From assembly GCA_003557545.1 (NCBI GenBank), contig PWOD01000122.1, positions 1 to 21,736 on the forward strand: 21,736 nt of DNA, read 5' to 3'. The stretch's first letter is position 1; every line of letters begins with the position of its first letter. The stretch comes from a bacterium. Its GTDB lineage: Bacteria; T1Sed10-126. Of this stretch, positions 3,100-20,901 are shown one piece after another. The translations under genes were made by a program, and so were the position numbers. The notes beneath the pieces were generated by a model. That model was not told the DNA's origin, searched no databases, and saw only the letters and a program-made list of their open reading frames with translations.

Positions 3100-4133
3100 G
3101 CAGTTCTGATCAAACAGTTAAGAAGAGTTATACAGCTGATGATTATTCCACTGAAAATACAGCTAACCTCTGCCCGGGCTGCGGACATCTGTTAATTGTT
3201 CGGGCCTTGAGACAGGCTCTGGCCGAGCTACAGATCCCGCCTGAAAAAATCAATCTGATCGCCGGGATCGGCTGTAGTGGTAAAACGGTAGCTGAAATTA
3301 ACAGTAATGGTCTCCATACTTTACATGGTTGTGCGGCGCCGGTGGCCATGGGGGCTCAACTGGCCAATCCGGAGCAGGAAAATATTCTGATCAGCGGTGA
3401 CGGTGACAGTTGGGCGATAGGTTCGGGTAAGATGATTGCTCTGTTGCGAACTAACCTTGATCTACTTTATATCTGTGAGAATAATGGAACCTATGGGTTG
3501 ACCCGTGGCCAGCTGTCGCCGACCACCAAGATGGACAGCCCCACCAGGTGCGGGACAGTCAGCGATATTCCCCCGGTTGACGGTATCGGTATTGCCCTGG
3601 TTAGTGGGGCCACCTATGTTGCCCGGGGATTTTCTGGCCGGCAGAAGCTGTTAATTGAACAGATCAAGGCCGGAATACTTCATAGGGGACTGGCCTATCT
3701 CGAAGTTTTTAGTCCCTGTCGCACCTTTAATGATCATGAAGAAAGTCATCACAGTTATCGGTATTGTCAGCGTCATGCGACTGATTTTCCAAGGATTTCA
3801 GTGGTTGACGTTGAGGCTGATTATCCGACTGACCGGCAGCTTGATCCAGAATTTAAATTTGAGGGTAAAAAAACCAATTTTGGTCTTAAGTTTGATAATC
3901 TTAATGAGATTCCCGGTTATGATCCCACCGACCGTAACCTGGCTTTGAAGACCTGGGAGGACTATTGGACTGAACAGGTTATTCCCCTGGGGCTGCTTTA
4001 TATCGATGATTCGGCGCGGGCTCATCATCAACGTTTTTATGGAGAGTCTGACAGTTATATAGCCGATCTTCGGCCCGAGGAAACGCGTCCTTCACAGAGT
4101 GATTTTTCAACAATACTGGAGCAGTTTAAATAA
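3096..4133 (+). CDS. korB: 2-oxoacid:ferredoxin oxidoreductase, beta (TPP/Fe-S) subunit
   Basis: This is the thiamine diphosphate- and [4Fe-4S]-binding partner of KorA. CPGCGH (Cys26, Cys29), GIGCSG (Cys60) and a late Cys in SPCRTFN supply four candidate cluster ligands. GDGDSWAIG from 101, followed by ENNGTYGLTRGQ, is the Mg-TPP motif. The ATG at 3096 overlaps the korA stop (ATGA) and has GGGAG about 11 nt upstream. A GTG at 3084 in the same frame overlaps that ribosome binding site and is less likely. At about 345 aa it is longer than the usual 280-300 aa beta subunit, with the extra length in the C-terminal third. No dedicated ferredoxin subunit (KorC/KorD) is nearby, so it probably reduces a free ferredoxin. 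Confidence 0.9.
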   Translation: MSSSDQTVKKSYTADDYSTENTANLCPGCGHLLIVRALRQALAELQIPPEKINLIAGIGCSGKTVAEINSNGLHTLHGCAAPVAMGAQLANPEQENILISGDGDSWAIGSGKMIALLRTNLDLLYICENNGTYGLTRGQLSPTTKMDSPTRCGTVSDIPPVDGIGIALVSGATYVARGFSGRQKLLIEQIKAGILHRGLAYLEVFSPCRTFNDHEESHHSYRYCQRHATDFPRISVVDVEADYPTDRQLDPEFKFEGKKTNFGLKFDNLNEIPGYDPTDRNLALKTWEDYWTEQVIPLGLLYIDDSARAHHQRFYGESDSYIADLRPEETRPSQSDFSTILEQFK

Positions 4134-4630: not shown

Positions 4631-6385
4631 GTGCACGATTGGAATTTAACCAAGGAAGAGGCAAGGTTTTTACAGGAAGAACTGGCTGAGGACTGTATTT
4701 TAGAGGGCAAACCTGAGGTTGAGCTGGTGGCAGGACTGGATGTGTCATTTTATCCTGGAAGTCAGATCTGTATTGCTTCGGCGGTTAGTTATTCATTAAA
4801 AAATCAGCATGTATGTGAAGAAGTTTTAATAATTTCAAAGCTGGAGTTCCCCTATATTTCAGGGCTGTTGGCCTTTCGTGAAGCACCTCCAATGATTGAG
4901 GCGGCGCTCAGTTTAAAAAACAAACCGGATTGTTTTATAGTTGATGGTCATGGGTATGCCCATCCCCGTCGCATGGGGTTAGCCTCCCATATTGGATTAT
5001 TTTTAGACACTCCGACGATTGGCTGTGCGAAAAACATCCTGGTTGGCGAATACAATGATCCGGGCCCTGAGGTAGGGGATAGCGATGTTATCTGGGACGG
5101 GGAGCCGATCGGTCACGTTATACGGTCGCGAAAGGAGGCTAAACCGATCTTTATTTCACCCGGCCATATGATAGATCCAGAGTATCTTCCGCAGCTGGTA
5201 AAACCGTTTTTGACTGGAGATTACCGGCTGCCGGAACCTCTGCGTCAGGCGGAGATTAAAGCCCGTTCAGAACGTCAGTTGATTGAGCAGATTATTAAGC
5301 CGTTCGTTGACCACGAGATTTCTATTTGTTTTGTTGGTGGTACACTGCGCGATCTGTTAACCGGGAAGAAACCGCGTGATTATGATCTGATGGTGGGTGA
5401 GTTTTCCAGAGAGGTTCGACGTGATCTGGAAAATCAGTTTGGCGGTCACTGGTTTGCCCTGGATCCAGATAGACAGATGTACAGGTTGCCCGGTAAGAAG
5501 ATTCAGCTTGATCTTATGGTTGTGCCCCCGGAAGAGGTAGAAGATGATCTGGAGCGTCGGGATTTTACAATAAACAGTGTGGCCCTGGATATGGGACAGG
5601 ACCTCTGGGTGGATCCTTTTGGTGGTAGAGAGGATGCTAGCAAGAGAGTTTTATGTCCAACAACCAACAGTTCACTGGCCGATGATCCCCTGAGACTTTT
5701 AAGGGGTTATCGACTGGCGGCAGAGCATCATCTGTCTTTCCACCCGCAGTTGCGGGAACGGATTTCTGAGACAGTTCCACTGCTGGGAAGGGTAAGTAAA
5801 GAACGGATTACTGAGGAACTGTTAAAGCTCTGTGGTCGGCAGGATGCTTCCCACTGGTTTGAAGTTATGTATGATGATGGTGTGATGACAGAAGCAGATT
5901 TTTTACGTAGTGAAGTTGTTGAAGAATCACGGATAATTGAACGCTGGAAACCGACGATTAAGAACTATCCGTTGATTAAGGAACGTGAGTATCACGGGGG
6001 TTATGATTTATTGACCTGTTTTAAGATGGCCCGCGCTATCCGTCAATCAGAACTTGATGACTGGCCACTACACCAGCAGATAAAACGGCTCTGTCGGGAA
6101 AGTTTTCTGGGTTTTTCAACTCGCCCGACTGACCTGAAGATTTTAAGTGCCAATTCACTGGCATTGCTGGGTCGGGTTTTAGGACAGGGTTTGACTGAAA
6201 ACTGGGGTGGCCCTAAAATTATTAACAAGATTGTTGAACTGGAGGAATACCTGGAGCTGCGGGGGGAGAAAACCAAGCAGATAGTCGAAGAGCATAAGAA
6301 CGAAGATAATCTTGGTGAGATTAAAAATGAACAGCTGCAGCAGGTTTTACCGGAGCTCTGGTCGAATACTATCGGCGGCAATTAA
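4631..6385 (+). CDS. Fusion of endonuclease V with CCA-adding/poly(A) polymerase-type nucleotidyltransferase
   Basis: Two complete enzymes occur in one 584-aa reading frame. Residues 1-~215 are endonuclease V (Nfi), which cuts nucleic acid next to deaminated bases (inosine). Metal-binding residues fit Asp37 (AGLDVSFY), Glu84 (FREAPP) and Asp105 (VDGHGYAHPRR), with FPYISGLL at 73-80 and PTIGCAKN at 128-135. Residues ~216-584 are a class II nucleotidyltransferase: GGTLRD (236-241), DYD (250-252, metal ligands), ERRDFTINS and DPLRLLRGYR. That class adds CCA to tRNA or poly(A) to RNA. The linker (~200-230) is short and helical. The GTG start has a weak site (TAGGTG). The gene follows the HIT gene by 77 nt and precedes the nuoA-like gene by 15. 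Each domain is recognised with high confidence; the role of the fusion is unknown, and inosine-linked tRNA quality control is a speculation. Confidence 0.88.
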   Translation: MHDWNLTKEEARFLQEELAEDCILEGKPEVELVAGLDVSFYPGSQICIASAVSYSLKNQHVCEEVLIISKLEFPYISGLLAFREAPPMIEAALSLKNKPDCFIVDGHGYAHPRRMGLASHIGLFLDTPTIGCAKNILVGEYNDPGPEVGDSDVIWDGEPIGHVIRSRKEAKPIFISPGHMIDPEYLPQLVKPFLTGDYRLPEPLRQAEIKARSERQLIEQIIKPFVDHEISICFVGGTLRDLLTGKKPRDYDLMVGEFSREVRRDLENQFGGHWFALDPDRQMYRLPGKKIQLDLMVVPPEEVEDDLERRDFTINSVALDMGQDLWVDPFGGREDASKRVLCPTTNSSLADDPLRLLRGYRLAAEHHLSFHPQLRERISETVPLLGRVSKERITEELLKLCGRQDASHWFEVMYDDGVMTEADFLRSEVVEESRIIERWKPTIKNYPLIKEREYHGGYDLLTCFKMARAIRQSELDDWPLHQQIKRLCRESFLGFSTRPTDLKILSANSLALLGRVLGQGLTENWGGPKIINKIVELEEYLELRGEKTKQIVEEHKNEDNLGEIKNEQLQQVLPELWSNTIGGN

Positions 6386-6400: not shown

Positions 6401-6760
6401 ATGATCCGGACAACAGTATTTTCCTGGGCTTCTATAATTTTTTCGGCTGGCCTGGCATTGTTGTTGATGACTGTGCTGGTCAAACTTTTTTCAAAAGAGA
6501 TCCTCCAGTTTTTTTCAACAGAAAGAGCCGGAGATCAGCTTGATAACGAGCCGTGGGATTCTACCCAGAGTTCACCTCAAACCTTTTTTATCATTACATT
6601 AATCCTGATTTTCTGCTGTTTTATCGTTGTTGTTTTACCACTGGTGGTTTTGCAAGAGTTGGCCGGCCAGCAGCTATTTTTATTTTATAAAACCCTGTTT
6701 TTATTTATTGCAGTGTTCATTAGTGGTCTGGCCTACTGGAACCAGTTGGGTGGGATATGA
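6401..6760 (+). CDS. NuoA-like membrane subunit of a divergent complex I-type assembly
   Basis: A 119-aa protein with three predicted membrane helices (about residues 7-28, 62-85, 93-113), the NuoA/NdhC topology. The first loop (SKEILQFFSTERAGDQ) sits where NuoA has its YECG loop, and the last helix ends LAYWNQLGGI, like the NuoA C-terminus. Identification rests on this pattern plus position at the head of a nuo-ordered cluster. The NuoA second-helix motif FDxE, an acidic pair near the quinone/proton entry, is replaced by uncharged residues (IFCCFIVVVLP), and the loop cysteine of YECG is absent. It begins 15 nt after the endonuclease V fusion gene, and its stop overlaps the next start (ATGATGG), implying coupled translation. 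It could be an unrelated small membrane protein, but the context argues against that. Confidence 0.6.
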   Translation: MIRTTVFSWASIIFSAGLALLLMTVLVKLFSKEILQFFSTERAGDQLDNEPWDSTQSSPQTFFIITLILIFCCFIVVVLPLVVLQELAGQQLFLFYKTLFLFIAVFISGLAYWNQLGGI

Positions 6761-7260
6761 TGGAAGTAGAACTTGCCAGTTTTGTTAAATCTTTGCTGCC
6801 GGAGGGGGAACCTTCCAGCTACAGTATCCTGCCCGGCGATTCTGCCATGAAAATTTCTGTTCCCCTTAGATATTTTTCACGGGTCTGTCGTGCTGTCAAA
6901 AAAACAGCACCTTTTTACTTTTTACAGCTGGTCGATATAAATGTTGTGGAAACTTCTCAAACAGATTCTTTATATCAGTTGGTCTATCAACTATATTCCC
7001 ATAAACTGAAGTTGCGTCTTGCTCTGGCGGCTGACTATGGTGGAGAGGAACAGTTTCCAGATATTTCTGATCTCTGGACAACTGCGGCCTGGCTGCAAGC
7101 CCGTGTAGAAGAGCTGTATGGTATAAAATTTGTCAGCTCTCAATTGACGGTGACCGGCAAAGCCAGTTTTTTGCCGTCCGGGACTGAACCATCCGGAATC
7201 AGCCGGGGACAGTTACCCTCGGTGGATATATTTAAAGAGGAGCCGGCTGATGGTTGCTGA
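6757..7260 (+). CDS. NuoC-like (30-kDa type) peripheral subunit
   Basis: A 167-aa soluble protein resembling NuoC, which in complex I forms part of the connecting module beside NuoD. The most telling stretch is LYQLVYQLYSHKLKLRLAL followed by ISDLWTTAAWLQARVEELYGI (about 103-124). It aligns with the family's YHLLS segment and the SVTxLWxxAxWxEREVYDxFGI signature. The highly conserved family C-terminus (HPDLRRIL, then PLRKDY) is missing; the protein ends in an unrelated ~40-residue tail. It overlaps the NuoA-like gene by 4 nt and the NuoD-like gene by 11 nt. A second ATG directly follows the first. Subunit assignment is good, but function in a normal quinone reductase is doubtful because the expected neighbour NuoB is absent. 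Confidence 0.72.
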   Translation: MMEVELASFVKSLLPEGEPSSYSILPGDSAMKISVPLRYFSRVCRAVKKTAPFYFLQLVDINVVETSQTDSLYQLVYQLYSHKLKLRLALAADYGGEEQFPDISDLWTTAAWLQARVEELYGIKFVSSQLTVTGKASFLPSGTEPSGISRGQLPSVDIFKEEPADGC

Positions 7261-8413
7261 TAGCCGGGAGATTAAAACCTATCTCCATCTGCTGCCCGCA
7301 GGTTGTTGTTCGACAAAATTTGCGCCGGCAGTTGAATTAACCCTGGAAGAAAATCTCATTACTGGATGTACACCGGTTACCTGGATTGATTATTTAACTG
7401 ACCGTGGCGCTGTTTTTTTAGAAAAAAATAATGAGGTCAGCCAGCAGTTTTACCTGGCTTATCAGCGGGCGCTCTGTAAAACTGGATTTATTCTTGGCGT
7501 CGAAGTCATTGCACAGATTAATCTCCCACTGATAGCTAAAATTTTGCGCACTTTATTCATAGAGTTGCTTCGGATGGTTGGCCAGTTTTATTGGTTGTCC
7601 AGTGCCGCCCGGCTGTTAGAAATTGAAACGGTGGCATTAGCAGCCCGCCGGGAGGCAGAAACTATTCATTCAGCAGCAAACAATTTTTTTCAGGTTGATC
7701 AGTTGAGCAAGGCCGTTCAACCGGGCGGTTTTTACATGCTGTTTGAGAAGAGACAAATCATCGAACTGGCGAGTCGACTGGAGGAACTGAAAAGGGGTTT
7801 ATCCTATTATAAAAATCGCTTTTTCCATAATTATATTGTTGGCCTAAGAGCCCATAAAAAAGCCATAATATCGATTGAAACAGCTTTAGACATGGGATTG
7901 ACAGGCCCAGTTTTAAAGGCGGCAGGAGTCGATCGGGATTTAAGAAGAGGGGTTTCCGGTTCTGTTTATGATCAGGTAGATTTTAGGATTCCGGTTGCTC
8001 AACGGGGGGATGCTCTGGAGCGGTTTAATGTAAGATTTGAAGAAATAAAACAGAGTCTCCAGATAATTGAGCAGTTGCTGGAAGAAGTTCCAGCCCAGTC
8101 CAATAATAGTCGGGAAACAGCGGTTTTTAATCGTCCCCCGGCGGCCCGGTTTGATGATTTTCTAAAGGGATATCAGAGGTTTTTAAAATTTTCCTCTGAA
8201 GAGCTAGAATTTCCCGGTGGAGAACTTTATTACAGTTTGGAAATGGGCGGTGGAGAGTATGGGTGGTATCTGCTGTCGAATCCCCAGAAATCGTCTATTG
8301 ACTGTCAATACAGAACTCCCGGAGCTGCCAATTTACAGAGTATGAGATATCTTGCTCCTGGCAAGAGATTAGCAGAATTTCATCTTTTATTCGCCAGTCT
8401 TGGCGTTGATTGA
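7250..8413 (+). CDS. NuoD-like (49-kDa type) peripheral subunit, quinone-site motif lost
   Basis: A 387-aa homologue of NuoD, the complex I subunit that with NuoB and NuoH forms the quinone pocket. Clear landmarks are LTGPVLKAAGVDRDLRR (from 217), YDQVDFRIPVAQRGDALERF, RFEEIKQSLQIIEQLL, and a C-terminal block (PGGELYYSLEMGGGEYGWYL, RTPGAANLQSM). The normally invariant N-terminal block with HPSTHG, which carries the quinone-contacting His, cannot be found; the N-terminus reads LHLLPAGCCSTKFAPAVEL instead. The protein ends at ASLGVD, without the usual GEVDR tail. No [NiFe]-hydrogenase cysteine ligands are present, so it is not a hydrogenase large subunit. Its ribosome binding site AAAGAGGAG (7234-7242) lies inside the NuoC-like gene. 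It is probably structural or repurposed. Confidence 0.8.
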   Translation: MVADSREIKTYLHLLPAGCCSTKFAPAVELTLEENLITGCTPVTWIDYLTDRGAVFLEKNNEVSQQFYLAYQRALCKTGFILGVEVIAQINLPLIAKILRTLFIELLRMVGQFYWLSSAARLLEIETVALAARREAETIHSAANNFFQVDQLSKAVQPGGFYMLFEKRQIIELASRLEELKRGLSYYKNRFFHNYIVGLRAHKKAIISIETALDMGLTGPVLKAAGVDRDLRRGVSGSVYDQVDFRIPVAQRGDALERFNVRFEEIKQSLQIIEQLLEEVPAQSNNSRETAVFNRPPAARFDDFLKGYQRFLKFSSEELEFPGGELYYSLEMGGGEYGWYLLSNPQKSSIDCQYRTPGAANLQSMRYLAPGKRLAEFHLLFASLGVD

Positions 8414-8480
8414 GGGATTAAAGTGAAATTGAATGAGCCTCACGACAAGTCATTTTTAGAGCTGCAGGGAAGTCGATAAC

Positions 8481-9563
8481 ATGTTACATACAGCAATCTG
8501 GATCCTGGTTTCCCTGCTCAGGCTAGTTGCCATTTTAGCTCTGTTTGGACTGGCTGCGGGGGCTGTCGCCTGGAGCGTCAGCCGGCGGGTCGGAAATGAT
8601 TCGGTAGTTTTTGTTAATAAACAACGACCGGCCGGTCAACCCCCACAATTATTTATCGAAATTATATCGGTTATTCTGCTGCTGGGGGGGTTAACGGTAA
8701 TTCCCCTGGGAAACTGGTCGATCACTATTTCGGAACTGCATCCAGCTCTGGCCAACTTCCAGATTTATCAGATAGCACCGGGTCAGTACAGCCTGCTTTT
8801 TTTACCTGTTTTAGTGGTTTTGGCCCTGGTAATAAACAGTGGATTCAGGGCTGGATTGATATCCACCAATCTGCCCGAATTACGACTTTTTGCCGGTCTG
8901 CTGCTGGCGGCGCTCTCTGTGCTGTCTGTATTAATTAGTACTGGAACTATCGATACCGGGGAGATTTTATTTTTTCAGAACGATCATGGCTGGTTGTTAC
9001 TGCATAATCCGCTGTCCGCAGTTGGTTTTTTTTCTGCTTCCTACCTGTTAATCGACCGGCGATGGCTGAGTTTACCGGGGATTACTTTTCCTCCCCAGAA
9101 TTTAGTCGAATTGAGAGAATTATTTAGTTCATTGAAACTTGGGCTGGCCCTTGTTTTACTGGCAGCTCTATTTAGCTTGATCTACCTGGGCGGTGCAGCA
9201 GTACCGCTGTTTGGTTTGCTGAGAGATACGGCTTCAGTGGGGCTGAGCGGTAGGTTCGGGTTGCTGCTCCAGCCGGTTGTCTTATTTTTAAAAATCTTTG
9301 CTCTGATCAGTTTATTTGTCTGGTTAAAACTGATTCAGCCAGGTCTGCCTGAAAAACGTTTGTTAAGTTTGATATTTTCTCTAGGGCTACCGGTGCTGCT
9401 GATTGATCTGGTGGTTGCAGCCACTGCTAGAACCGGGGTGGCTCCAGGTAGTTCTGGCTGGTGGTTGCTCCGTGGTGTCTGGACGGTTATTGGGTTCGGC
9501 TGGGTTTGGTACAAAAGTTTTTATTTGTATTCTGGGACTACGATTAAACTGGTCGAACCATAG
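8481..9563 (+). CDS. NuoH-like membrane subunit
   Basis: A 360-aa polytopic protein with about eight to nine predicted helices, in the NuoH position and of NuoH size. The N-terminal helix, followed by SRRVGNDS and RPAGQPPQLF, mirrors the NuoH loop after helix 1. Later segments FLKIFALISLFVWLKLIQPGLP and LPVLLIDLVVAA match the family's WFxxK...FxWxRxTxPR and final-helix blocks. The acidic loop that makes NuoH recognisable (ERxPFDLPEAESEL), which lines the quinone channel, is absent; the equivalent stretch reads DRRWLSLPGITFPPQNL. The ATG has AGGGAAG upstream. There is a 67-nt gap after the NuoD-like gene and a 47-nt gap before the NuoJ-like gene. In canonical order NuoI should come next, but the gap has no room for it. 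Confidence 0.68.
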   Translation: MLHTAIWILVSLLRLVAILALFGLAAGAVAWSVSRRVGNDSVVFVNKQRPAGQPPQLFIEIISVILLLGGLTVIPLGNWSITISELHPALANFQIYQIAPGQYSLLFLPVLVVLALVINSGFRAGLISTNLPELRLFAGLLLAALSVLSVLISTGTIDTGEILFFQNDHGWLLLHNPLSAVGFFSASYLLIDRRWLSLPGITFPPQNLVELRELFSSLKLGLALVLLAALFSLIYLGGAAVPLFGLLRDTASVGLSGRFGLLLQPVVLFLKIFALISLFVWLKLIQPGLPEKRLLSLIFSLGLPVLLIDLVVAATARTGVAPGSSGWWLLRGVWTVIGFGWVWYKSFYLYSGTTIKLVEP

Positions 9564-9610
9564 CGGCGGAAAATTTACTCTGTTATGGTTGGACCGGAGA
9601 TTCAATTCAG

Positions 9611-10138
9611 GTGAATAAAATTATGGCAGAACTTGTTTTTTATTTTTCCTCATTTTTTTTGATAATCGCTCTGGCTGGATTTTTGCGTTCCCGCCGGCCC
9701 GGTCAGAAGCTGTTGCTTATAACTCTTGTTACGGTTTTTAACGTACCACTTTATTTTTTGTTGAACCGGCCGCTTACTGGTCTGCTCATCGGCAGTTTTT
9801 GGATCGGTGCTATTGCTTTGCTGGTATCTACAATTGGGGATGCACGTCCTTGTTCGGCAGTTTTAAGCTTGGCTTCTCTGTATGAAAAAATTATCTGTGC
9901 GGTAGTTATGACTTATGGCGTAATAGTTTTATTCAGCTTGATATTTCAGGTCAACCATGCGGTTCTTCCGGGGGATTTTGGTTTTGACCTGGCCGGTGGC
10001 CGTCATTTGAGTTATCTGGCGATTAATTTATTTTATGGCTACTGGCCATTCTTTTTGCTTGTCGCCCTGTTATTTCTCGGACTGTTTTTGAGTGTGGGGC
10101 ATATTTTTGAACAACTTAAGCTTATCAAGGAGAGTTGA
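9611..10138 (+). CDS. NuoJ-like membrane subunit
   Basis: A 175-aa protein with five predicted helices, as in NuoJ: near residues 7-23, 32-50, 58-75, 90-112 and 138-160. FWIGAIALLV corresponds to the family's VYVGAIxVLFLFV segment on helix 3, where NuoJ has its pi-bulge. The rest is strongly diverged, so the call relies on topology and position between the NuoH- and NuoK-like genes. The listed start is GTG at 9611 with a CGGAG-type site about 11 nt upstream. ATG at 9623, with AGGTG upstream, would shorten it by four residues and is equally plausible. The gene ends TGA at 10136-10138 in the same frame as the following NuoK-like ORF. Confidence 0.65.
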   Translation: MNKIMAELVFYFSSFFLIIALAGFLRSRRPGQKLLLITLVTVFNVPLYFLLNRPLTGLLIGSFWIGAIALLVSTIGDARPCSAVLSLASLYEKIICAVVMTYGVIVLFSLIFQVNHAVLPGDFGFDLAGGRHLSYLAINLFYGYWPFFLLVALLFLGLFLSVGHIFEQLKLIKES

Positions 10139-10159
10139 ACAACAATCTATCCATATTAT

Positions 10160-10432
10160 TTGATTCCCGGTATTTTATTGTTAGCCACAGGGATCTTCGG
10201 TCAACTTAGAAAGACGGGTGGACTGAATCGAGTTTTATCCATTTTCCTGGGGTTCAGCGGACTGTTTTATCTGCTGGCAGTAGTTGGGTATTTTTTTGCT
10301 CTTGATTTGGATAGGGTGTACCTGTTTTGTCTGCTGTTATTGACAGTTGTTCAGCTGATCGTGGCGGTCTTTCTGAGCTGGTTAGAAGGCTTTTTCCCAA
10401 AATCAAGTTCTGAACAGGGAGTCTATAAATGA
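10160..10432 (+). CDS. NuoK-like membrane subunit, start codon uncertain
   Basis: A 90-aa (or slightly longer) three-helix protein in the NuoK position. LLATGIFGQL matches the first helix (LFAIGLYG), RVLSIFLGFSGLFYLLAV the second, and LFCLLLLTVVQLIVAVFL the third. The two membrane glutamates essential for proton transfer in NuoK are not present: the helix-2 site is hydrophobic (around Leu30/Gly31) and the helix-3 site is Gln65. The formal start is TTG at 10160, but it lies about 25 nt from the ribosome binding site AAGGAGAG (10127-10134), and the homologous N-terminus extends upstream (IYPYYLIPG). An ATC at 10145, about 10 nt from that site, fits better. The frame continues from the NuoJ-like gene across its TGA. 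The stop overlaps the NuoL-like start (ATGA). Confidence 0.65.
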   Translation: MIPGILLLATGIFGQLRKTGGLNRVLSIFLGFSGLFYLLAVVGYFFALDLDRVYLFCLLLLTVVQLIVAVFLSWLEGFFPKSSSEQGVYK

Positions 10433-12228
10433 TTGATTATAGTTTTTCTATACTGCTGTTTGCCTCTCTGTTTGGGATTGTTTTAATAATTGGATTGTTC
10501 GATTTGAACAAGGCTTTTAAGCGATTATGGTATCTGCCGTCGGTTCTGTCCAACCTGCTTGATCTGGTTCCTCTTGTAATCAGCTGGCTATTATTATTTA
10601 AAATCGATTCCTTCCAACTTATTTTTCTGGAGTCGCGTTTTTTTGACCTGGGGATTTTTTACGATCGTTCGTCTGCAGTTTTTTTAGTCATGCTGTGGAC
10701 AGCAGTTTTTTTCTTGAAGATTTTTCTGCTATTATTTTTTTCCGGTTCGACTCTGCACCTATATTACTGGTTGATTGAGCTGTTGGGCTTTTCCGGATTG
10801 TTGATCTATCTGGCTCCGGGGGCTGTTCAGCTATTAATCGGTTTATCGATTGGCAGCCTGGGACTCTATCTTTTTGAGGCTAGATTTTCTTCCGAACCAG
10901 AGCAGTTTGATCGGTTGCAGGCTTCATATTGGGGTGCCGGCTGGGCTGTTAACCTGCTGATAGCAGTGACTGTTATCGGTTTGATTATGAGTTTTAATAG
11001 TGAACGTTTTACTGTTTTTTATCCGCTGATCGATCTATCTGCCGCCGATAATATAAGTTATCTGATTGCAGCAGTTTTTCTTGCAGCAGCGGTTCTCTTT
11101 GGAATTTTTCCATTTGTTTCAAAAGCGGTCTATGATCGTGAATTCGTTACTGATCGATTTAATTTTTTTAAATTTTACTTTCTCCTGCCGGCGGTTTGTT
11201 TTTTGCTTCTACGATTCAACAGTTTTTTAGAGTTGTGGCTACCGCTCCGGTTGATTCTATCAATCGGCGGTTTGTTTACTGCACTACAAACTGCTCTGTC
11301 CGGTTTTAGGCAGAAGAAGTTTAACCATCTCGTGGAAACTGTGGTAGGCAGTCATTTGGGAATGATTTTCTTTTTATTTGCTCTGGGCTATGCCCGGCTG
11401 GCAGTCTTTTATCTGTTTTTTCTCTTAGCCGGTCGGGGGGCTGTAGAGTTATCGGGCCGAGCAGCCCTGGGGGCAGCTCGAACCCGGGGATCTTCGCCAC
11501 CCGAGGCTATAAGTTCATTTTATCTGTCAATTTTTCTTCCACTGATAGGACTTTTAATTTTGGCTGGTCTACCGCCGTTCTGGGGATTCTGGGTTAATTT
11601 AGTGCTGCTTGGTGCAATCATTTCTGAGCCCGAATTCTGGTCGTTGATACCTCTGATCTATCTGTTTTTTATCTGTCAGTTATTTCTCCTGTTTAAACTT
11701 ATACGACGGTTGTTGAAGGGGAGCGGGCAGGCGGGTGGTGTTCAGGAATCCCGTCCTCTTATTAGTTTCCTGGGAACCAGCTTTGTGGTATTAATAGGAG
11801 TGGGTGGGGGGCTGCTGTCAGCCGACTATTTTACCAGTCCTGTCGATTTACTTTGGCAATTGCCGCCAAATCAGATTGTTTTTTATTTAGTAATGGTCTT
11901 GCTAGCGGGGGGACTGATCTATTCGACAAGGTATGTTGGAGTTAAATCGAATACTATTTTTCCCGGAGTCCTTATTGGTGTGGCTAATTTTTCAGTCCTG
12001 GGCACTATCTGCGGACAGAAGTTCATCTTGTTGATGGAGTGGCTGAGCAAACTTGTGACCGGCTGGGAAAGACAGGGCCGTCAACGGATCGCTCGACTCC
12101 TCGGAGGCCTGCTGAAACTTTCAGGAGTAGGGTTGGAATTTTTCCAAACCAGGAGTTTAAGTGGCTATTGTTTTTGGGGAACGCTGCTGTTTGTTGGACT
12201 CTTGTTACTGGTTGTTTTATTTTCCTAA
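10429..12228 (+). CDS. NuoL-like antiporter-type membrane subunit
   Basis: A 599-aa, roughly 16-helix protein of the NuoL/Mrp-antiporter family. NuoL rather than M or N is indicated by its size, the LAGLPPFWGFWVN block (378-390) and the C-terminal extension: GWERQGRQRIARLL, then FFQTRSLSGYCFWG, like the NuoL segment ending in lateral helix and last TM (LQTGxLRxY). Key channel residues appear changed. The helix-5 glutamate (GWEGVG in NuoL) is Ser140 in GLSIGS. The helix-7 lysine is a Leu five residues before Pro228. The helix-12 lysine of GFFSK is Asn390. The HAATMV motif is not conserved. These are by-eye alignments. The start overlaps the NuoK-like stop, with AGGGAG upstream. It presumably sits at the distal end of a membrane arm but is unlikely to pump protons in the usual way. 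Confidence 0.78.
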   Translation: MIDYSFSILLFASLFGIVLIIGLFDLNKAFKRLWYLPSVLSNLLDLVPLVISWLLLFKIDSFQLIFLESRFFDLGIFYDRSSAVFLVMLWTAVFFLKIFLLLFFSGSTLHLYYWLIELLGFSGLLIYLAPGAVQLLIGLSIGSLGLYLFEARFSSEPEQFDRLQASYWGAGWAVNLLIAVTVIGLIMSFNSERFTVFYPLIDLSAADNISYLIAAVFLAAAVLFGIFPFVSKAVYDREFVTDRFNFFKFYFLLPAVCFLLLRFNSFLELWLPLRLILSIGGLFTALQTALSGFRQKKFNHLVETVVGSHLGMIFFLFALGYARLAVFYLFFLLAGRGAVELSGRAALGAARTRGSSPPEAISSFYLSIFLPLIGLLILAGLPPFWGFWVNLVLLGAIISEPEFWSLIPLIYLFFICQLFLLFKLIRRLLKGSGQAGGVQESRPLISFLGTSFVVLIGVGGGLLSADYFTSPVDLLWQLPPNQIVFYLVMVLLAGGLIYSTRYVGVKSNTIFPGVLIGVANFSVLGTICGQKFILLMEWLSKLVTGWERQGRQRIARLLGGLLKLSGVGLEFFQTRSLSGYCFWGTLLFVGLLLLVVLFS

Positions 12229-12261
12229 AAGTTTTGTTAAACGGAAAGGATTGAGTGAGTT

Positions 12262-13758
12262 TTGTTATATTTGCTGGTGATTATGGTTCCTTTTACTATA
12301 GCCGGTTTTTTGGTCTGGAGGACTGAGATGTCAACCACCAGACTCACAGCCCGGCAAACCCTGCTATTACTATCAGGCAGCGGGCTGCCCGTACTGTTTG
12401 GGTGGGGAATAATTACTGCCAGCGAATCTTTGCCGGTTGGACTGTTTAATACAGGGTTCTCCTGGTTTGGTGGTATCTCCTCCGAGCGGGTTGAGTCGGT
12501 TGTGGATGGTAGGGCCTTTCTATTTTTTCTTCTATCAGCTTTGTTGATTAGTTTTATGCTATTATTTTTGCTTCAATCAAAACGGATCATCCGGGCCCGC
12601 ACCGGAGTTTTAATAGCCGGATTAACAGGTAGTTTGTATGGATTATTTTTAGCTGGAGACTATTTATTGTTAATTGTTTTCTGGCAGCTTTTAGCCGTTA
12701 TGCTTTACTATTTTATGTTGGACCAGGGATTTTCTGGTCGTCAGGCTGGACTGCAGTTTGCTTTCCGTACTGCTGGTTCAATCATTTTTCTGGGAGTCCT
12801 TGCTCTAATGGTTGGTTCGGGAGATAGTTTAACTGTCAGTTTTTCTTCTGTCCTTCCAGCATCAGTGACGAATGGAGGAAATGGCTGGTTACTAACTGCA
12901 CTGGTCATAGCTTTTATTGCCGGCGGCGGCCTTTTTCCTCTGCATTTTAGATCGAACTCAGGGACAGCAGAGCCAACCATTGAAACCCAGTTTTTTGTTA
13001 CTGTTTTAGTTCCTGTTTCTGCCCTCTATATCATCTCTCGAATCATTCCGTTCGGTGCTTCGCAAGGATTTCCGCTGCAGTATGGGCTGTTTATTGTAGT
13101 TATGCTGGGGATAGTTTATGGGGCTCTGCTGGCGTTGGGTAGCAGCTCTTCAGAACAGTTTATCAACTATCTTTCCATCAGCTCTTATTCGATTGCTCTG
13201 GCAGCCTTATTAGCGGGGATCATATCGGCCTGTCCCCCGGCTCTTTTTCAGACATTTTCTACGGCTTTAATTGTTTCCGGTCTAATCCTTTCTACACGGT
13301 CAACGCTCAGCTTGAAAACCAGTGAAAACCGTAAATTATCCCCCGGCAAACAATCAGGCTGGCAGCTTAGAGGTAACTATTTTGCAGCAGTTTTTTTACT
13401 GGCGTCCGCCGGTTTTGTTGGTAGTTCGGGATTTATTGGAATCCTTACGGTTGCTCTAACTATTTTGGAGTTTTCTTCTGCTGCAGGTTTACTGCTGGTC
13501 GCTCTGGTTTTCTCCGGCGGCCTGTTTGGTTATAAATTTTTTACCGATTTTTTAATGCTTAAACCTGTTGTTTTATCGCCAGCTGTACTATTGAAGCTTG
13601 CTATTATATTAATAATAATAATTTATTTGGGGTTGAATCCTAATCCTCTGTTTGAGGCATTCAGCTGTCCGGAAACAGCAACCAGGCAAATCAGCCAAAT
13701 GAGCTTTTCCCGTGAAACAGTCAATATTTCTGAGTTGTTCTTTCGGGGGGGTGGATAG
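12262..13758 (+). CDS. NuoM-like antiporter-type membrane subunit
   Basis: A 498-aa polytopic member of the same family, of NuoM length and in the NuoM position. LLIVFWQLLAVMLYYFML corresponds to NuoM FYVFFELxLIPMYFLI, with the essential glutamate replaced by Gln142. FRTAGSIIFL matches the FxxYTxxGSxxML block. GGGLFPLHFRSNSGTAEPT (221-239) matches the KxPxxPFHTWLPDAHxEAPT region, with the channel lysine replaced by Gly221 and the following LK also lost; the motif histidine (His228) is kept. The start is TTG at 12262, 11 nt after AAAGGA and two codons after an in-frame stop, so no longer protein is possible. It ends overlapping or abutting the NuoN-like gene. Confidence 0.72.
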   Translation: MLYLLVIMVPFTIAGFLVWRTEMSTTRLTARQTLLLLSGSGLPVLFGWGIITASESLPVGLFNTGFSWFGGISSERVESVVDGRAFLFFLLSALLISFMLLFLLQSKRIIRARTGVLIAGLTGSLYGLFLAGDYLLLIVFWQLLAVMLYYFMLDQGFSGRQAGLQFAFRTAGSIIFLGVLALMVGSGDSLTVSFSSVLPASVTNGGNGWLLTALVIAFIAGGGLFPLHFRSNSGTAEPTIETQFFVTVLVPVSALYIISRIIPFGASQGFPLQYGLFIVVMLGIVYGALLALGSSSSEQFINYLSISSYSIALAALLAGIISACPPALFQTFSTALIVSGLILSTRSTLSLKTSENRKLSPGKQSGWQLRGNYFAAVFLLASAGFVGSSGFIGILTVALTILEFSSAAGLLLVALVFSGGLFGYKFFTDFLMLKPVVLSPAVLLKLAIILIIIIYLGLNPNPLFEAFSCPETATRQISQMSFSRETVNISELFFRGGG

Positions 13759-13759
13759 T

Positions 13760-15151
13760 TTGCTGATTGAACTATATGTTTTTTCTCCATTTATTATTCT
13801 GTTTATTGGTGCTCTGGGCTGTATGCTCTGGAAGTTGTGGTCTGAAGATTCGGTTGAAATTATTTTTTTCACCTGTTTTATTTTGCTGCTTACTGCTGTT
13901 GCTTTGTTGTCAGGGGTGGAAGGAGAGGCCGGGTCGTTACTGCTGGATAGCCCGGCCAAAATGGCTTTTTTGCTTATTATAGTTGTTCAGTTGATAGGGT
14001 TGCTATATTCCTATATCTATTTGCGTTCCCATCTTCTTCCGGCGGTAGTCTACTGTTTTTTGTATCTGTTGTTAACCGCTGGTAGTGGTCTCATGGTTAG
14101 CACGACTAATCTGTTGACCTTTTATCTGGGATTGGAGCTGACGGTTTTCGCCGGCTGTTTTCTGGCTTTTTATGATTGTGACTTCACCCGGTTCAAACTA
14201 AGTCGTAATTATTTTTTCATCAATCTTCTGGGAAGTTTGTTCTTTCTGGTCAGTTTCCTGCTGATGTTTGTCGGATATAGAACTGTGGATCTCGCCCAGA
14301 TCGATTCAAGATTGCTGGCCGAACAACCTGGTTTATTACTGGGAGTTTTGCTGGCAATAGCTTTCAAGGGTGGACTGGGCCCCTTTTATTTTCTCTTTCG
14401 CGATTTTTATAATAGTGCTCCCACACCGCTGACCTTCAGTTTTTTTGCTGCAGTCAGAACCGCGCTGTTGATTTTTTTCCTGCGAGTTGTGCAGCTTTTT
14501 TCACCGGCAGATTCTGTTGTATGGCTCTGTTTTTTGGTGGGTTTCGGTTTTATTTTACTGTTTTTTCCAGTTTTACAGGCCTTTGTTCAAAACTCATTAA
14601 AAGAAAGTGCTATCGGGATTTTTTTGGCCAGTGGTGGGATTTTTCTTTTTTTGCTGGCCAGTGGCGACTCCTCAGTAACTCCGCTCTTTTTTTATCTATT
14701 GCAGGTCCAGTTGCTTTTGTTTGCTGGGCTTTCCGGGGTTATTTTAATAATAGATTCCTCAGCAAAAACAATGTATAAGATTAACCGTTCAGTTGATAAC
14801 CAGTCCGGTTCAGCTTCGTGGCTTCTCTGGCAGGGTATCTTTCTTGCTTTTATTGGGGTCCCGCCGCTGGGAAGTTTTATCGCCTTATATCTTATTATCT
14901 TGAGATTCGCCCGGTCAGGTATGTTGATTTTATTGCTGTTATTGGCGCCCGCATATCTGCTCCTGACTGTAACAGTTTTAAAAGTTGCTCGCAGGTATCT
15001 GATGAAGTTTCAGTCCGCTTATAGCGCAGTCTGGTTCGATAATAATATTGCTAAACGGTTGCTCTGTCTTGTCGTCTGGTTTAGTTTGACAGCTCTATTG
15101 ATGATGGGTTTTTTCCCTGAATTGTTTCTGAATTTTCCCCTCTTTTCTTAA
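13760..15151 (+). CDS. NuoN-like antiporter-type membrane subunit
   Basis: A polytopic protein (about 463 aa from the chosen start) of the NuoN branch. Unlike the L- and M-like subunits it keeps the core channel residues. Glu126 in LGLELTV is the helix-5 acid. Lys203 in AFKGGLGPFYF is the helix-7 lysine, followed by RDFYNSAPTPLT (NuoN: PDVYEGAPTPVT). Arg233 stands where NuoN has the PK or SK lysine. The helix-12 lysine (GGFxGKF) is lost in GVPPLGSFIALYL. I prefer TTG at 13760, directly after the previous stop and behind a G-rich site. A GTG at 13712 would add 16 residues and overlap the NuoM-like gene by 47 nt. It is the last gene of the run; the 336 nt downstream are AT-rich, with only weak stem-loops. 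Confidence 0.75.
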   Translation: MLIELYVFSPFIILFIGALGCMLWKLWSEDSVEIIFFTCFILLLTAVALLSGVEGEAGSLLLDSPAKMAFLLIIVVQLIGLLYSYIYLRSHLLPAVVYCFLYLLLTAGSGLMVSTTNLLTFYLGLELTVFAGCFLAFYDCDFTRFKLSRNYFFINLLGSLFFLVSFLLMFVGYRTVDLAQIDSRLLAEQPGLLLGVLLAIAFKGGLGPFYFLFRDFYNSAPTPLTFSFFAAVRTALLIFFLRVVQLFSPADSVVWLCFLVGFGFILLFFPVLQAFVQNSLKESAIGIFLASGGIFLFLLASGDSSVTPLFFYLLQVQLLLFAGLSGVILIIDSSAKTMYKINRSVDNQSGSASWLLWQGIFLAFIGVPPLGSFIALYLIILRFARSGMLILLLLLAPAYLLLTVTVLKVARRYLMKFQSAYSAVWFDNNIAKRLLCLVVWFSLTALLMMGFFPELFLNFPLFS

Positions 15152-15487: not shown

Positions 15488-16528
15488 ATGCAAACTAAAG
15501 GTTTTCGTGGTAAGGATTTTATAACTTTGAGGGATTTCACGCGGGAAGAGATTGATAGTCTGTTGGAAGTCGGATTTGATCTCAAGAAACGTTATGCATT
15601 AAAAGAACGACATTCTCACATACTTCCAGATAAAACACTTTACATGATATTTTATAATCAGTCTTTAAGGACTAGAAACTCCTTTGAGGCCGGGATGACG
15701 CAGCTGGGAGGTCATGCCCATTTTCTTTCCTCCGATAAGATTTATACACCGGCGGTAGAGGGGGAAGAAAAGGCTTATTCGACCGAACGGGTCTCGGATG
15801 TCGCGCGGACTCTGGAGAGGTTTGGTGACGCCATAGCGATTCGGATGTATGGTCCGCCGACCGGTTGGGTTTACGGAAAGGCTAATTCTTATATGAATGA
15901 GTTTGCCCGTTGGACCAACATTCCGATCATCAACATGGAATGTGATAAATACCATCCCTGTCAGGCTCTGTCAGATCTTTTAACAATCAAGGAGAAACTG
16001 GGAACTTTCAAGAAGAAGAAATTCGTCATGTCCTGGGCCTATTCTCCCTCCTATGAGAAACCTCTAAGTGTTCCCCAATCGGCAATTATTGCGGCTTCAA
16101 AAATGGGTATGGATGTGGTGCAGGCTCAGCCCAAGGGGTTTGAGCTTGATGAGGAGATACTCGACGCCTGTTCTAAATATGCCGAAGATGCCGGCGGTAG
16201 CTTTGAAGTCAGCTATGACATGGATGAGGCTTTTGAAGATGCACATGTTGTCTATCCCAAATGCTGGGGGTCAAAGTCTGAGTTCGAAAACGTTGCCGAA
16301 GGTGATGATTCCGGCATGGTCAAGCTGTTTGAGCAGAACAAAGATTGGAAATGTGATGCTGACAAACTGGCGCTGGCCCGAGAAAATGCCCTTTACATGC
16401 ATTGTTTGCCAGCAGATCGAGGCTGGGAAGTTACCGATGATGTGATAGATGGTCCGCAATCGGTTGTGTTTGATGAGGCCGAAAACCGGCTGCACGCGCA
16501 AAAAGCCGTCATGAGTCTGGTGATGTAA
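15488..16528 (+). CDS. YgeW-type (catabolic, aspartate/ornithine-like) carbamoyltransferase 1
   Basis: A 346-aa member of the aspartate/ornithine carbamoyltransferase superfamily. Carbamoyl-phosphate-binding motifs are present: SLRTR (59-63, in FYNQSLRTRNSFE), HPCQ (156-159) and HCLPADRGWEVTDDV (from 305). The segment FVMSWAYSPSYEKPLSVPQS (179-198) is characteristic of the knotted YgeW branch and differs from classical OTC, which has DGNN there. YgeW enzymes are thought to run in the degradative direction, forming carbamoyl phosphate from a ureido compound; purine-derived ureides have been proposed. The start has a near-ideal AAAGGAGG site. The paralogue follows after 1 nt. The true amine substrate cannot be told from sequence. 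Confidence 0.85.
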   Translation: MQTKGFRGKDFITLRDFTREEIDSLLEVGFDLKKRYALKERHSHILPDKTLYMIFYNQSLRTRNSFEAGMTQLGGHAHFLSSDKIYTPAVEGEEKAYSTERVSDVARTLERFGDAIAIRMYGPPTGWVYGKANSYMNEFARWTNIPIINMECDKYHPCQALSDLLTIKEKLGTFKKKKFVMSWAYSPSYEKPLSVPQSAIIAASKMGMDVVQAQPKGFELDEEILDACSKYAEDAGGSFEVSYDMDEAFEDAHVVYPKCWGSKSEFENVAEGDDSGMVKLFEQNKDWKCDADKLALARENALYMHCLPADRGWEVTDDVIDGPQSVVFDEAENRLHAQKAVMSLVM

Positions 16529-16529
16529 A

Positions 16530-17555
16530 ATGGCCTTGCGAAAGAGTAGTTTAAACGGCAAGTCAATGATTACCACACAGGATCTCAGTCGGGAGGAGAT
16601 TCTGGAGATTATCCAGGTGGCCGAGGCCATGCAGAAACATCGTTTTTCCGATGAGTATACCGGGGTTTTAAAACATCAAAGTTTTTTGATGTTTTTCTAT
16701 AATCCTTCGGTCCGCACCCGACAGTCGTTTGAAATTGCTGCGACTGAGTTGGGTGGCCATGGTCTGTACCTGGAACCGGGCGGTATGCGTCTTAAGACTA
16801 AGGATCGTGCCGGTGAAACGATTGAGGATGTAGCCGGGGTAATGAACCGTTACGGCTGTGGTGTTGGGATTCGTATTCTTGAAGGGAAACTCGATTATTA
16901 TGGCCGGGGCGATGAGATTCTGCGTGAATACGACCGCTATCTGAAAGTCCCCCTGGTGAGTTTTGCCCACGATCGTTTTCATCCCTGTCAGGGACTGGCT
17001 GATGCCATGGGTTACCGCAAACATTTAGGTGAACATCTTGAGGGAAAAACGATTGTTCACCAGTGGGGCCACGGAGCCCTGGCTCGTTCCCATTGTTCTG
17101 TTCAGGAGAGTATGTTGATCTGTTCACGGCTGGGAATGAATGTTCGGGTCGCTCATCCACCCGGTTATGAGCTTGATCAAGAGGTGATCGATTGGACAAA
17201 GCAAAACTGTGCGGAAAATTCGGCTGAGTTTTCCGTGACAAATGATCCTGTCGAAGCCTATGAGGATGCCGACATAGTCTATTCCCGTAACTGGATGAGT
17301 ACAGATGCCTATAGTGGCGGCGAGTTTCATAAGGAGCAAGAGGTTGAGAAGGCCATGCAATATACCGACTGGATCTGTGATGAGGAAAAGATGAAGCTGA
17401 CCAACAACGGCTTCTTTTCACATCCCATGCCGGTGGATAGAACCCATGAAGTTACTGATGAAGTAGCTTCTGGACCTCGCTCAATTATTCTTGATATAGC
17501 CGAAAACAGGCTGCACGTTCAGAAGGCCTATATGGCTCTATCAATGGGTAGTTAA
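16530..17555 (+). CDS. YgeW-type carbamoyltransferase 2, with altered catalytic loop
   Basis: A 341-aa paralogue of the preceding gene. It keeps PSVRTR (59-64, in FFYNPSVRTRQSFE) and HPCQ (151-154), but where OTC and YgeW have HCLP it carries HPMPVDRTHEVTDEV (from 298), closer to the HPLPR of aspartate carbamoyltransferase. The middle loop is VHQWGHGALARSHCSVQES, at the position of AYSPSYxKPLSVPQ in its neighbour. These changes lie where the second (amine) substrate binds, so it probably uses a different acceptor or donor from gene 1, or the two form a hetero-oligomer. The ATG is 1 nt after the previous stop, with little ribosome binding site, suggesting coupled translation. The transcript ends at the terminator 24 nt downstream. 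Confidence 0.82.
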   Translation: MALRKSSLNGKSMITTQDLSREEILEIIQVAEAMQKHRFSDEYTGVLKHQSFLMFFYNPSVRTRQSFEIAATELGGHGLYLEPGGMRLKTKDRAGETIEDVAGVMNRYGCGVGIRILEGKLDYYGRGDEILREYDRYLKVPLVSFAHDRFHPCQGLADAMGYRKHLGEHLEGKTIVHQWGHGALARSHCSVQESMLICSRLGMNVRVAHPPGYELDQEVIDWTKQNCAENSAEFSVTNDPVEAYEDADIVYSRNWMSTDAYSGGEFHKEQEVEKAMQYTDWICDEEKMKLTNNGFFSHPMPVDRTHEVTDEVASGPRSIILDIAENRLHVQKAYMALSMGS

Positions 17556-17578
17556 AAATCCTTTTATGTTTGGCAATG

Positions 17579-17616
17579 ATATGCTGACAGGTTAACTTGA
17601 CCTGTCAGCATATTTT
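17579..17616 (+). terminator. Strong intrinsic terminator after the tandem carbamoyltransferases
   Basis: A perfect 14-bp stem is formed by 17579-17592 and 17600-17613 (core GCTGACAGGT / ACCTGTCAGC), with a 7-nt loop TAACTTG. The right arm runs into TTTT (17613-17616). The run of T is short, but the stem is long and GC-rich in the centre. Confidence 0.85.
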
Positions 17617-17855
17617 GCTTATTATTACCGTTCACCGGTTTGTTGCAAATTTACCCGAATAAACAGGCAGAGTCAGCGGTGAGCGCCATTCAGAACGATT
17701 ATTTATCAGGCTGATCTTATAATAAAAGCCGGTTGTTATTTAACGGTAGTGGGAGTTGTACAGGTTGCGGGTTGAAATTATAGGGCAGCTGATTTTTCAA
17801 TTATCTTTGATAATACGGCGCAACAGGTTCGAAATTATTTTGAGGAGGATCTATT
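17617..17855. promoter_or_regulatory. Leader/promoter region of the carbamate kinase genes
   Basis: This gap follows a terminator, so it must carry the promoter of the next three genes if they are not read through. A perfect TATAAT lies at 17718-17723 without a good -35. A palindrome ATTATC-TTT-GATAAT (17800-17814) lies 42 nt before the ATG and could be an operator. No known riboswitch or gene is recognised. Confidence 0.35.
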
Positions 17856-18800
17856 ATGCCTAAAGCAGTCGTCGCAGTTGGTGGCAACTCACTTATTTCT
17901 GAGAAAGGGAAGGAATCTGTTCCAGATCAATATACAGCCGTGGTGGCAACGGCCCGTCACATAGCCGGAATGATTGAGCGGGGTTGGGATGTTGTGGTTA
18001 CCCATGGTAATGGACCCCAGGTTGGGTTTATTTTACTCCGGGCGGAGCTGGCCAAAAAACATGCTGGTCTGCATGATGTTCCTCTTGATTCCTGTGTGGC
18101 TGATACCCAGGGGGCTATTGGATATACTTTTCAGCAGGTTTTAAAAAATGAATTTGAACGCCGAGGTATCGATAAAAATGCGGTTACACTGGTTACACGG
18201 GTTCTGGTTGATAAAAATGATCAGGCGTTTGATAATCCTGCTAAACCGATTGGACCGTTTATGGAAGAGGAGGAGGCCCGTCAACACCAGGACGAAGATG
18301 GATGGGATGTGGTGGAAGATTCAGGACGGGGTTATCGCCGGGTGGTTCCCTCTCCGGCACCGGTTGAAATAATTGAGGAAGAATCGATTAAAACCCTGGT
18401 CGAAAAGGGAGATACCGTGATTGGAGTAGGGGGCGGAGGTATCCCTGTTTATCGTCGAGAGGATGGGATTATTGCCGGTATCGCTGCTGTCATTGATAAA
18501 GATGCTGCTTCTTCAGTGCTGGCTAAAAATATTGGGGCTGAGCTGTTTCTTGTTTCTACAGCTGTGGAACAGGTCTGTATCAACTTTGGTCAACCGGATG
18601 AACAGCCACTTGATGAGATGACGGTGGCTGAGGCCAAACAGTACATTGAGGAGGGCCATTTTGCGCCCGGCAGCATGAAACCAAAGGTTGAAGCTGTGAT
18701 TGATTTTCTGGAAGCTGGTGGTAAAGAAGCGATTATTACTACTCCCTATAATATTGAAAAAGCTCTGGAAGGAAAAGCAGGCACCCGGGTGGTTAATTAA
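17856..18800 (+). CDS. arcC: Carbamate kinase
   Basis: A 314-aa carbamate kinase of the amino-acid-kinase fold. It transfers phosphate from carbamoyl phosphate to ADP, giving ATP and carbamate, which decays to CO2 and NH3. Motifs: VGGNSL (8-13), THGNGPQVG (49-57), then DTQGAIGY, GVGGGGIPV and DKDAAS, the nucleotide- and phosphate-binding loops of ArcC/YqeA. The length is typical. The ATG has GAGGAGG at good spacing. Two nucleotides separate it from the PLP enzyme gene, so the two are cotranscribed. The position between three carbamoyltransferases shows that the block works in the catabolic direction. The symbol arcC is used for the enzyme activity; the yqeA-type paralogue cannot be distinguished here. 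Confidence 0.95.
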   Translation: MPKAVVAVGGNSLISEKGKESVPDQYTAVVATARHIAGMIERGWDVVVTHGNGPQVGFILLRAELAKKHAGLHDVPLDSCVADTQGAIGYTFQQVLKNEFERRGIDKNAVTLVTRVLVDKNDQAFDNPAKPIGPFMEEEEARQHQDEDGWDVVEDSGRGYRRVVPSPAPVEIIEEESIKTLVEKGDTVIGVGGGGIPVYRREDGIIAGIAAVIDKDAASSVLAKNIGAELFLVSTAVEQVCINFGQPDEQPLDEMTVAEAKQYIEEGHFAPGSMKPKVEAVIDFLEAGGKEAIITTPYNIEKALEGKAGTRVVN

Positions 18801-18802
18801 CA

Positions 18803-19996: not shown

Positions 19997-20901
19997 GTAA
20001 AAAGGATTTTGTGATTTTAACTGATTATGACAGGAAGACGCTGGAAGAGATTATTCAACGCGCTCGAGAGCTTAAAGGAGGAGCTCAGCCGCAACGTGGT
20101 AAAGATAAGGCGCTGGCCATGATTTTTACCAAACCATCGACCAGAACCAACGTTTCCTTTCGTATGGCAATGCATAGGTTGGGTGGTACTTCGATGTATC
20201 TCGGGAATGAAACTCTTCAACTTTCCCGGGGCGAGACTATTGAGGATACGGGCCGCACGCTGGCCCGGTATGTGGATATAGTTATGATTCGGACCTTTGA
20301 TCATGTTGATGTTGAAAACCTGGCAGCCGGTTCGACAGTCCCTGTTATTAACGGGTTGACCGATCTGTGTCATCCCTGTCAGGCCATGGGTGATGTTCTG
20401 ACCCTGGTAGAATCAATTGATTGTGAGCTGTCGGAGGCGAAATTGACCTATATTGGTGATGGTAATAACGTCTGTCATTCATTGATCAATGCTGCTGGTA
20501 TTTTTGGATTTAAACTGACCGTTTGTGCGCCACCGCAGTTTGCGCCGTCCCCTGCTATTGTCAGACCAATGCAGGAAAAAAATCCCAGTATTGAGGTGGT
20601 TTCTGACCCTCAGTCCGCCGTAGTTGGAGCGGATGCCATTTATACTGATGTCTGGGTAAGTATGGGCGATGAAGAGGAGGCTGAGCAAAGATATCAAACT
20701 TTTGGTGATTACCAGGTTAACTCTCAGCTCCTGCAACAGGCCAAGGACTCCTGTATAGTACTGCACTGTCTGCCGGCTAATCGAGGAGAAGAGTTGACTG
20801 ATGAGGTAATGGATGGTCCTCGATCACGGATTTTTGATCAGGCAGAAAATCGAATGCACAGTCAGCAGGCTATTCTGGAATATCTTCTGGGAACCGTTTG
20901 A
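19993..20901 (+). CDS. argF: Ornithine carbamoyltransferase
   Basis: A 302-aa classical OTC interconverting ornithine plus carbamoyl phosphate with citrulline. All signatures are present: KPSTRT (47-52), HPCQ (127-130), DGNN (156-159), DVWVSMGDE (219-227; the SMG loop binds ornithine) and HCLPANRG (258-265). It is of normal size, unlike the longer YgeW-type pair. It overlaps the PLP enzyme gene (ATGA) and is the last gene of the carbamate kinase operon, so it likely works catabolically with carbamate kinase, as in the arginine deiminase pathway (arcB role). An arginine deiminase (arcA) is not in the window. Catabolic and biosynthetic OTCs cannot be separated safely from sequence, so the symbol denotes the enzyme. 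Confidence 0.93.
   Translation: MSKKDFVILTDYDRKTLEEIIQRARELKGGAQPQRGKDKALAMIFTKPSTRTNVSFRMAMHRLGGTSMYLGNETLQLSRGETIEDTGRTLARYVDIVMIRTFDHVDVENLAAGSTVPVINGLTDLCHPCQAMGDVLTLVESIDCELSEAKLTYIGDGNNVCHSLINAAGIFGFKLTVCAPPQFAPSPAIVRPMQEKNPSIEVVSDPQSAVVGADAIYTDVWVSMGDEEEAEQRYQTFGDYQVNSQLLQQAKDSCIVLHCLPANRGEELTDEVMDGPRSRIFDQAENRMHSQQAILEYLLGTV

Follow-up and report, generated by a model that had tools for sequence, protein, structure and literature searches.

A complex I-like gene cluster without NuoB and NuoI, conserved in two genera, may encode a non-redox membrane complex

Introduction

Can the skeleton of respiratory complex I be put to use by itself? In studies of complex I, the subunits are seen as there to link pumping to the transfer of electrons, with NuoB carrying the iron-sulfur (Fe-S) cluster N2 and NuoI carrying two 4Fe-4S clusters. 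The question is raised by a locus on contig PWOD01000122.1 (GCA_003557545.1, lineage T1Sed10-126), of which we analysed positions 1 to 21,736 of the forward strand, hereafter the window. At 6401-15151 the window carries nine consecutive plus-strand genes in the order nuoA-C-D-H-J-K-L-M-N, without internal stops, with an overlap of 4 nt between nuoA and nuoC and a gap of 47 nt between nuoH and nuoJ, as an initial annotation made from the sequence alone had described. This is the gene set of the 11-subunit nuoABCDHIJKLMN enzyme, known from Desulfitobacterium hafniense (PMC11238625), minus exactly NuoB and NuoI. Here we put at about 0.6 the probability that the cluster codes for a non-redox complex derived from complex I, in which the Fe-S subunits were lost and the folds were kept by selection as a structural or regulatory membrane complex rather than an electron-driven pump.

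The window belongs to a 2.15 Mb draft metagenome-assembled genome (MAG) of 91.9% completeness, which was compared with a second genome, G001, which comes from the same family but a different genus and is the sole other member of the phylum among the genomes compared. Both are incomplete draft MAGs (92-93% complete, 239 and about 120 contigs). Seven canonical operons served as the reference set for profile-profile comparison with hhalign and for residue alignment, and rarity was surveyed in 386 phylogenetically spread genomes.

Results

NuoB and NuoI are absent from the nine-gene cluster and from their canonical slots in both genomes. Each genome encodes one NuoB-family protein. Its gene adjoins one of NuoH type within a separate hydrogenase cluster of the Mbh-Mrp type, where the large subunit of a NiFe hydrogenase is accompanied by 4Fe-4S proteins, NAD(P)H/ferredoxin-type subunits and Mrp-type genes; this cluster is split over the end of contig C205 and contig C84 in the window's genome and lies on contig C104 in G001. 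No NuoI scored above the cut-off in either genome, the best match (67 bits against a cut-off of 113) being again within the hydrogenase cluster. None of the nine proteins themselves has a CxxC motif in either genome, no cysteine pair is shared, and the cysteines common to both genomes are single ones in NuoC and NuoN only. The claim that exactly the Fe-S subunits have been lost is therefore borne out. The initial annotation had also named two observations that would speak against it, a nuoB and nuoI pair elsewhere in the genome with closest relatives that co-occur with the cluster, and a second canonical copy that would make this one a recent decaying duplicate; the sole NuoB belongs to the hydrogenase locus, and no second canonical NuoD was found in the genome search.

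In G001, the same nine genes stand in the same order with the same neighbours on both sides, so that the arrangement, which the initial annotation had proposed to look for in related genomes, recurs in another genus and is more than chance. Between the two genomes the proteins are 18% (A), 36% (C), 32% (D), 28% (H), 25% (J), 24% (K), 27% (L), 26% (M) and 29% (N) identical. Despite this divergence, the first and second codon positions remain above random pairing in all nine genes: identity is 0.34-0.50 at position 1 and 0.52-0.58 at position 2, compared with 0.24-0.26 and 0.26-0.34 under shuffled pairing, while position 3 (0.27-0.34) is close to the shuffled values and hence near saturation. 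In a simulation in which the window's genes drifted neutrally to about 32% amino acid identity, about 114 in-frame stops would be expected and none is seen in either genome, a contrast that is large even though the simulation was a simple one of point changes in one lineage. Constraint is also regional within NuoD, where residues 201-280 include 39 identical positions out of 80 and residues 281-320 include 3 out of 39. With every frame intact in the two genera, and with conservation at the first two codon positions beside a nearly saturated third, the loss of the Fe-S subunits is, as read from the codons, old and selected rather than a recent decay, in agreement with the earlier claim that the cluster is kept under selection.

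The losses go further than the initial annotation had noticed and extend to the quinone site and a large part of the proton path. Residue roles and numbering follow PMC9271201, with E. coli numbers assigned by motif, and the losses were read from a MAFFT seed alignment that is weakest for A, J and K, where single residues need care. In NuoD, the GPQHPATHG loop with the quinone-site histidine is replaced in both genomes; NuoC has lost its C-terminal GHPDLRR...PLRKDYP motif; and in NuoH the region of the quinone-tunnel helix is shortened and the acidic PFDLPEAExEL loop is degraded. The E-channel and the NuoK glutamates are gone, the equivalents of NuoA D79 and E81 being C and F in the window (S and F in G001), next to a lost YECG, and those of NuoK E36 and E72 being F and Q (L and Q in G001). 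Most of the Lys/Glu proton wire has likewise disappeared. In NuoM, E144 is Q in the window and E in G001, K234 is G and V, K265 is P in both, and E407 is lost; in NuoL, E144 is S, the central lysine R and K399 N in both, and D400 is lost. Only NuoN keeps the Glu-Lys ion pair in both genomes (E133-K217, the glutamate of transmembrane helix (TM) 5 and the lysine of TM7); its K247 is R in both, and its K395 survives in G001 but not in the window. Charged positions were hit preferentially in the membrane subunits of the window, where, judged against the seven operons with a single alignment method, 17 of 114 invariant charged columns were kept compared with 179 of 640 uncharged ones (Fisher p 0.004), while NuoC and NuoD together show no such bias (22/56 versus 52/110 kept, p 0.41). 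New features common to both genomes have appeared as well, among them a C-terminal extension of NuoH that adds a helix with PGSSxW.

Homologues of NuoA, C, D, H and J-N were recognised in conserved order, as in complex I, with A, J and K weaker. By the profile searches that the initial annotation had recommended, C, D, H, L, M and N are firmly identified and J and K fairly well; the naming of A is mainly a matter of synteny. Among the window proteins, NuoC-like (6757-7260, 167 aa; PF00329, 44.8 bits), NuoD-like (7250-8413, 387 aa; PF00346, 157.6 bits), NuoH-like (8481-9563, 360 aa; PF00146, 34.4 bits) and NuoM-like (12262-13758, 498 aa) exceed Pfam cut-offs, and NuoM-like and NuoN-like (13751-15151, probably starting at GTG 13751) match the NCBIfam NuoM and NuoN models TIGR01972 and TIGR01770 at 71.7 and 72.1 bits, far under the NCBIfam cut-offs. 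Comparison with the canonical operons by hhalign gave 100% for D (E 7e-49), 99.7% for N, 99.0% for M, 98.8% for H and 98.7% for both C and NuoL-like (10429-12228, 599 aa including the C-terminal extension), whose G001 orthologue matches PF00361 at 66.6 bits, above the Pfam cut-off. Weaker values were obtained for NuoK-like (10160-10432, 90 aa as called; 85%) and NuoJ-like (9611-10138, 175 aa; 58%), the G001 orthologue of the latter matching PF00499 with E 4e-4, below the cut-off. NuoA-like (6401-6760, 119 aa) has no profile support in this comparison (6%) and was assigned by its position in the operon, about three TMs and an alignable pattern. Throughout the set, TM counts based on hydropathy are still similar to those of the canonical subunits. 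At 10136-10162, where the G001 relative of NuoK-like begins, the window has none of the common start codons, and translation may begin upstream of TTG 10160, at a rare ATC near 10145 that follows a GGAG motif.

The NuoD-like protein, which keeps the core fold and has no NiFe ligands, matched Nqo4 with E 1e-46 when a two-row profile was compared with solved chains, far ahead of MbhL (E 9e-16) and HycE (E 1e-11), so that the origin of the cluster is complex I rather than a hydrogenase. Structure prediction from a two-sequence alignment reached a mean pLDDT (predicted local distance difference test) of 41.7 for NuoD and 39.2 for NuoH; the top 50 Foldseek matches of the NuoD model were all complex I 49-kDa chains, but at a TM-score (template modelling score) of about 0.3 they add little to the identification.

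The cluster is rare in the sample surveyed. Over the 386 genomes, the two-row NuoD profile scored 708-750 bits on the window's genome and G001, with 194 bits as the highest score elsewhere, and counts of NuoD versus NuoB gave no further NuoB-less case. A search of genome contigs for related loci yielded a single NuoD, a canonical one from a Rhodospirillales MAG. Three candidates were considered and set aside. G044 and G087 have more NuoD than NuoB, but in the former NuoB lies beside NuoD, and in the latter the contig stops short of the expected place. G026, with three NuoD and no NuoB, looked like a second NuoB-less lineage, but the contigs concerned resemble protist mitochondrial genomes: in this 97% complete bin, several related copies of such DNA, with genes for ribosomal proteins as well as cox1, cox2, cob and nad, occur at loci L091, L092 and L093, apparently protist mitochondrial DNA contaminating a bacterial MAG. 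A distant third lineage beyond the sample is possible. Consistent with the earlier statement that no such complex had been described, searches of open-access texts gave no description of this nine-subunit composition, although they turned up complex I variants without the N-module and, in a large survey, an 'incomplete' category (PMC12361115).

Upstream, both genomes have an endonuclease V fused to a tRNA-nucleotidyltransferase/poly(A) polymerase head (window 4631-6385, plus strand, 584 aa, PF04493 and PF01743; G001 locus L033 5601-7355), and downstream both have YgeW-type and carbamoyltransferase genes. Identity between the two genomes is 59, 83 and 79% for these flanking genes, the endonuclease V fusion being the one at 59%. 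As the fusion ends only 15 nt before nuoA in the window and 9 nt in G001, it probably forms a single operon of ten with the nine nuo-like genes, itself in first place. The downstream group at 15488-20901 comprises three carbamoyltransferase-family genes, a carbamate-kinase-like gene and a pyridoxal phosphate-dependent ammonia-lyase-like gene, the first two of which are conserved in G001, and resembles a YgeW-type purine or carbamoyl catabolism cluster. Further upstream, at 1288-4133, lie the genes of a two-subunit 2-oxoacid:ferredoxin oxidoreductase. This enzyme was rejected as an electron donor, as in G001 it is not beside the nuo-like cluster.

Discussion

The composition of the cluster, its synteny in two genera, the selection for open frames and the residue losses are established at the level of sequence. 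From them we infer that the nine subunits would assemble, would neither transfer electrons nor pump, and might serve as a scaffold or in regulation. On balance we lean towards describing the product as a pseudo-complex I, that is, a nine-subunit membrane complex with the architecture of complex I and a selected role that needs no electrons, quinone or proton wire. The initial annotation had left two ways out, a new partner or a non-redox role. The latter is strengthened: with no quinone site and little of the proton path left, an otherwise working pump that has found a new electron partner is less likely than a non-redox complex.

We propose that the common ancestor of the two genera lost NuoB and NuoI, which would have removed all Fe-S clusters together with one side of the quinone pocket. 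Once released from electron-coupled pumping, the complex would have had its quinone loops (NuoD, NuoH), the acidic E-channel residues (NuoH, NuoA, NuoK) and, in NuoL and NuoM, the majority of the proton-wire residues replaced, while purifying selection would have kept the folds, the gene order and the peripheral C-D cap. The outcome would be a membrane arm with a small C-D cap, structural or regulatory in function and with at most one residual ion path through NuoN. A lineage with Rnf and a hydrogenase-Mrp-type complex, two systems able to conserve energy in the absence of quinones, might be the setting in which complex I lost its redox job. RnfC and RnfD genes are adjacent at locus L081, and the Rnf and Mbh-Mrp-type loci could carry energy conservation.

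Several points weigh against a non-redox scaffold. NuoN keeps the pair of TM5 glutamate and TM7 lysine, and G001 in addition keeps a few more charges (NuoM E144, NuoN K395 and an arginine in NuoL), which may mean that some ion chemistry remains. Weak constraint, too, would show itself as fast divergence, and a redox partner may be encoded elsewhere. Moreover, both genomes are incomplete, and the residue test had a narrow base of operons and alignment methods.

The first of these points leads to what we infer to be the main rival to our first guess of scaffolding or regulation, namely a NuoN-centred ion path. NuoN would then form a gated path for cations or protons, possibly with the C-D cap as the gate, in the manner of a cut-down Mrp antiporter. 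Both genomes retain NuoN E133 and K217, and of all membrane subunits NuoN has kept the largest share of its invariant charges (6/14 in both), yet the central lysine is an arginine, a poor proton relay, in NuoN as well as NuoL, NuoM and NuoL have lost most titratable residues, and NuoK lacks both glutamates. We therefore regard an ion-conducting device as unlikely, although worth keeping in mind.

That the cluster is instead what remains of a complex I for which neither lineage has a use any more, decaying but still ahead of its first frameshifts, is improbable. Identities of 18-36%, compared with 59-83% in the flanking genes, and the loss of catalytic residues would suit such a decay, but it does not fit with nine genes open in both genera where neutrality predicts so many stops, with conserved first and second codon positions, with the kept gene order, or with new features that the two genomes have in common, the PGSSxW extension of NuoH among them.

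Even less credit can be given to a complex that is still redox-active and borrows NuoB and a ferredoxin-like subunit from the Mbh-type hydrogenase, or receives electrons from an unknown carrier docking on NuoD. Each genome does have one NuoB and one NuoI-like 4Fe-4S protein, and the NuoD core is kept; however, the NuoB and 4Fe-4S genes sit in a complete hydrogenase cluster of their own, the NuoD quinone-site loop, the NuoH quinone helix and the E-channel are gone, and G001 has no clear quinone prenyltransferase, its sole UbiA-family match being below the cut-off. Finally, that nuoB and nuoI merely lie in unassembled parts of the two drafts is hardly credible, given that the cluster is contiguous, the canonical slots are empty in both genomes, independent absence from two drafts is unlikely, and the sites that interact with NuoB were lost along with it.

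If the non-redox reading is right, the nine-subunit cluster represents a natural dissection of complex I residues into those for catalysis and those for architecture, and calls for caution in annotation pipelines that infer respiration from nuo genes.

Among known systems, the DAB/DUF2309 CO2-uptake complexes also use a NuoL-like subunit without electron transfer, but they consist of one such subunit and a zinc protein with no other Nuo subunits, and no DUF2309 (DabA) partner is present among the annotated neighbours in the window. Mrp Na+/H+ antiporters are likewise non-redox complexes of NuoL/M/N and NuoK-type subunits; they have no C, D, H or A, and the nine-gene cluster differs from their MrpA-G gene set and has largely lost their conserved ion pairs and central lysines. 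Group 4 [NiFe] hydrogenases and Ehr-type complexes share NuoC, D, H and antiporter-like subunits with the cluster but keep a NuoB homologue, whereas the cluster has none, possesses NuoA, and has a NuoD without CxxC that is closer to Nqo4 than to hydrogenase large subunits. Finally, the 11-subunit complex I retains NuoB, NuoI, the quinone site and the proton-wire residues, most of the last being missing here, and yet it has the same gene order, the same subunits apart from two and, like the nine-gene cluster, no NuoE, F or G.

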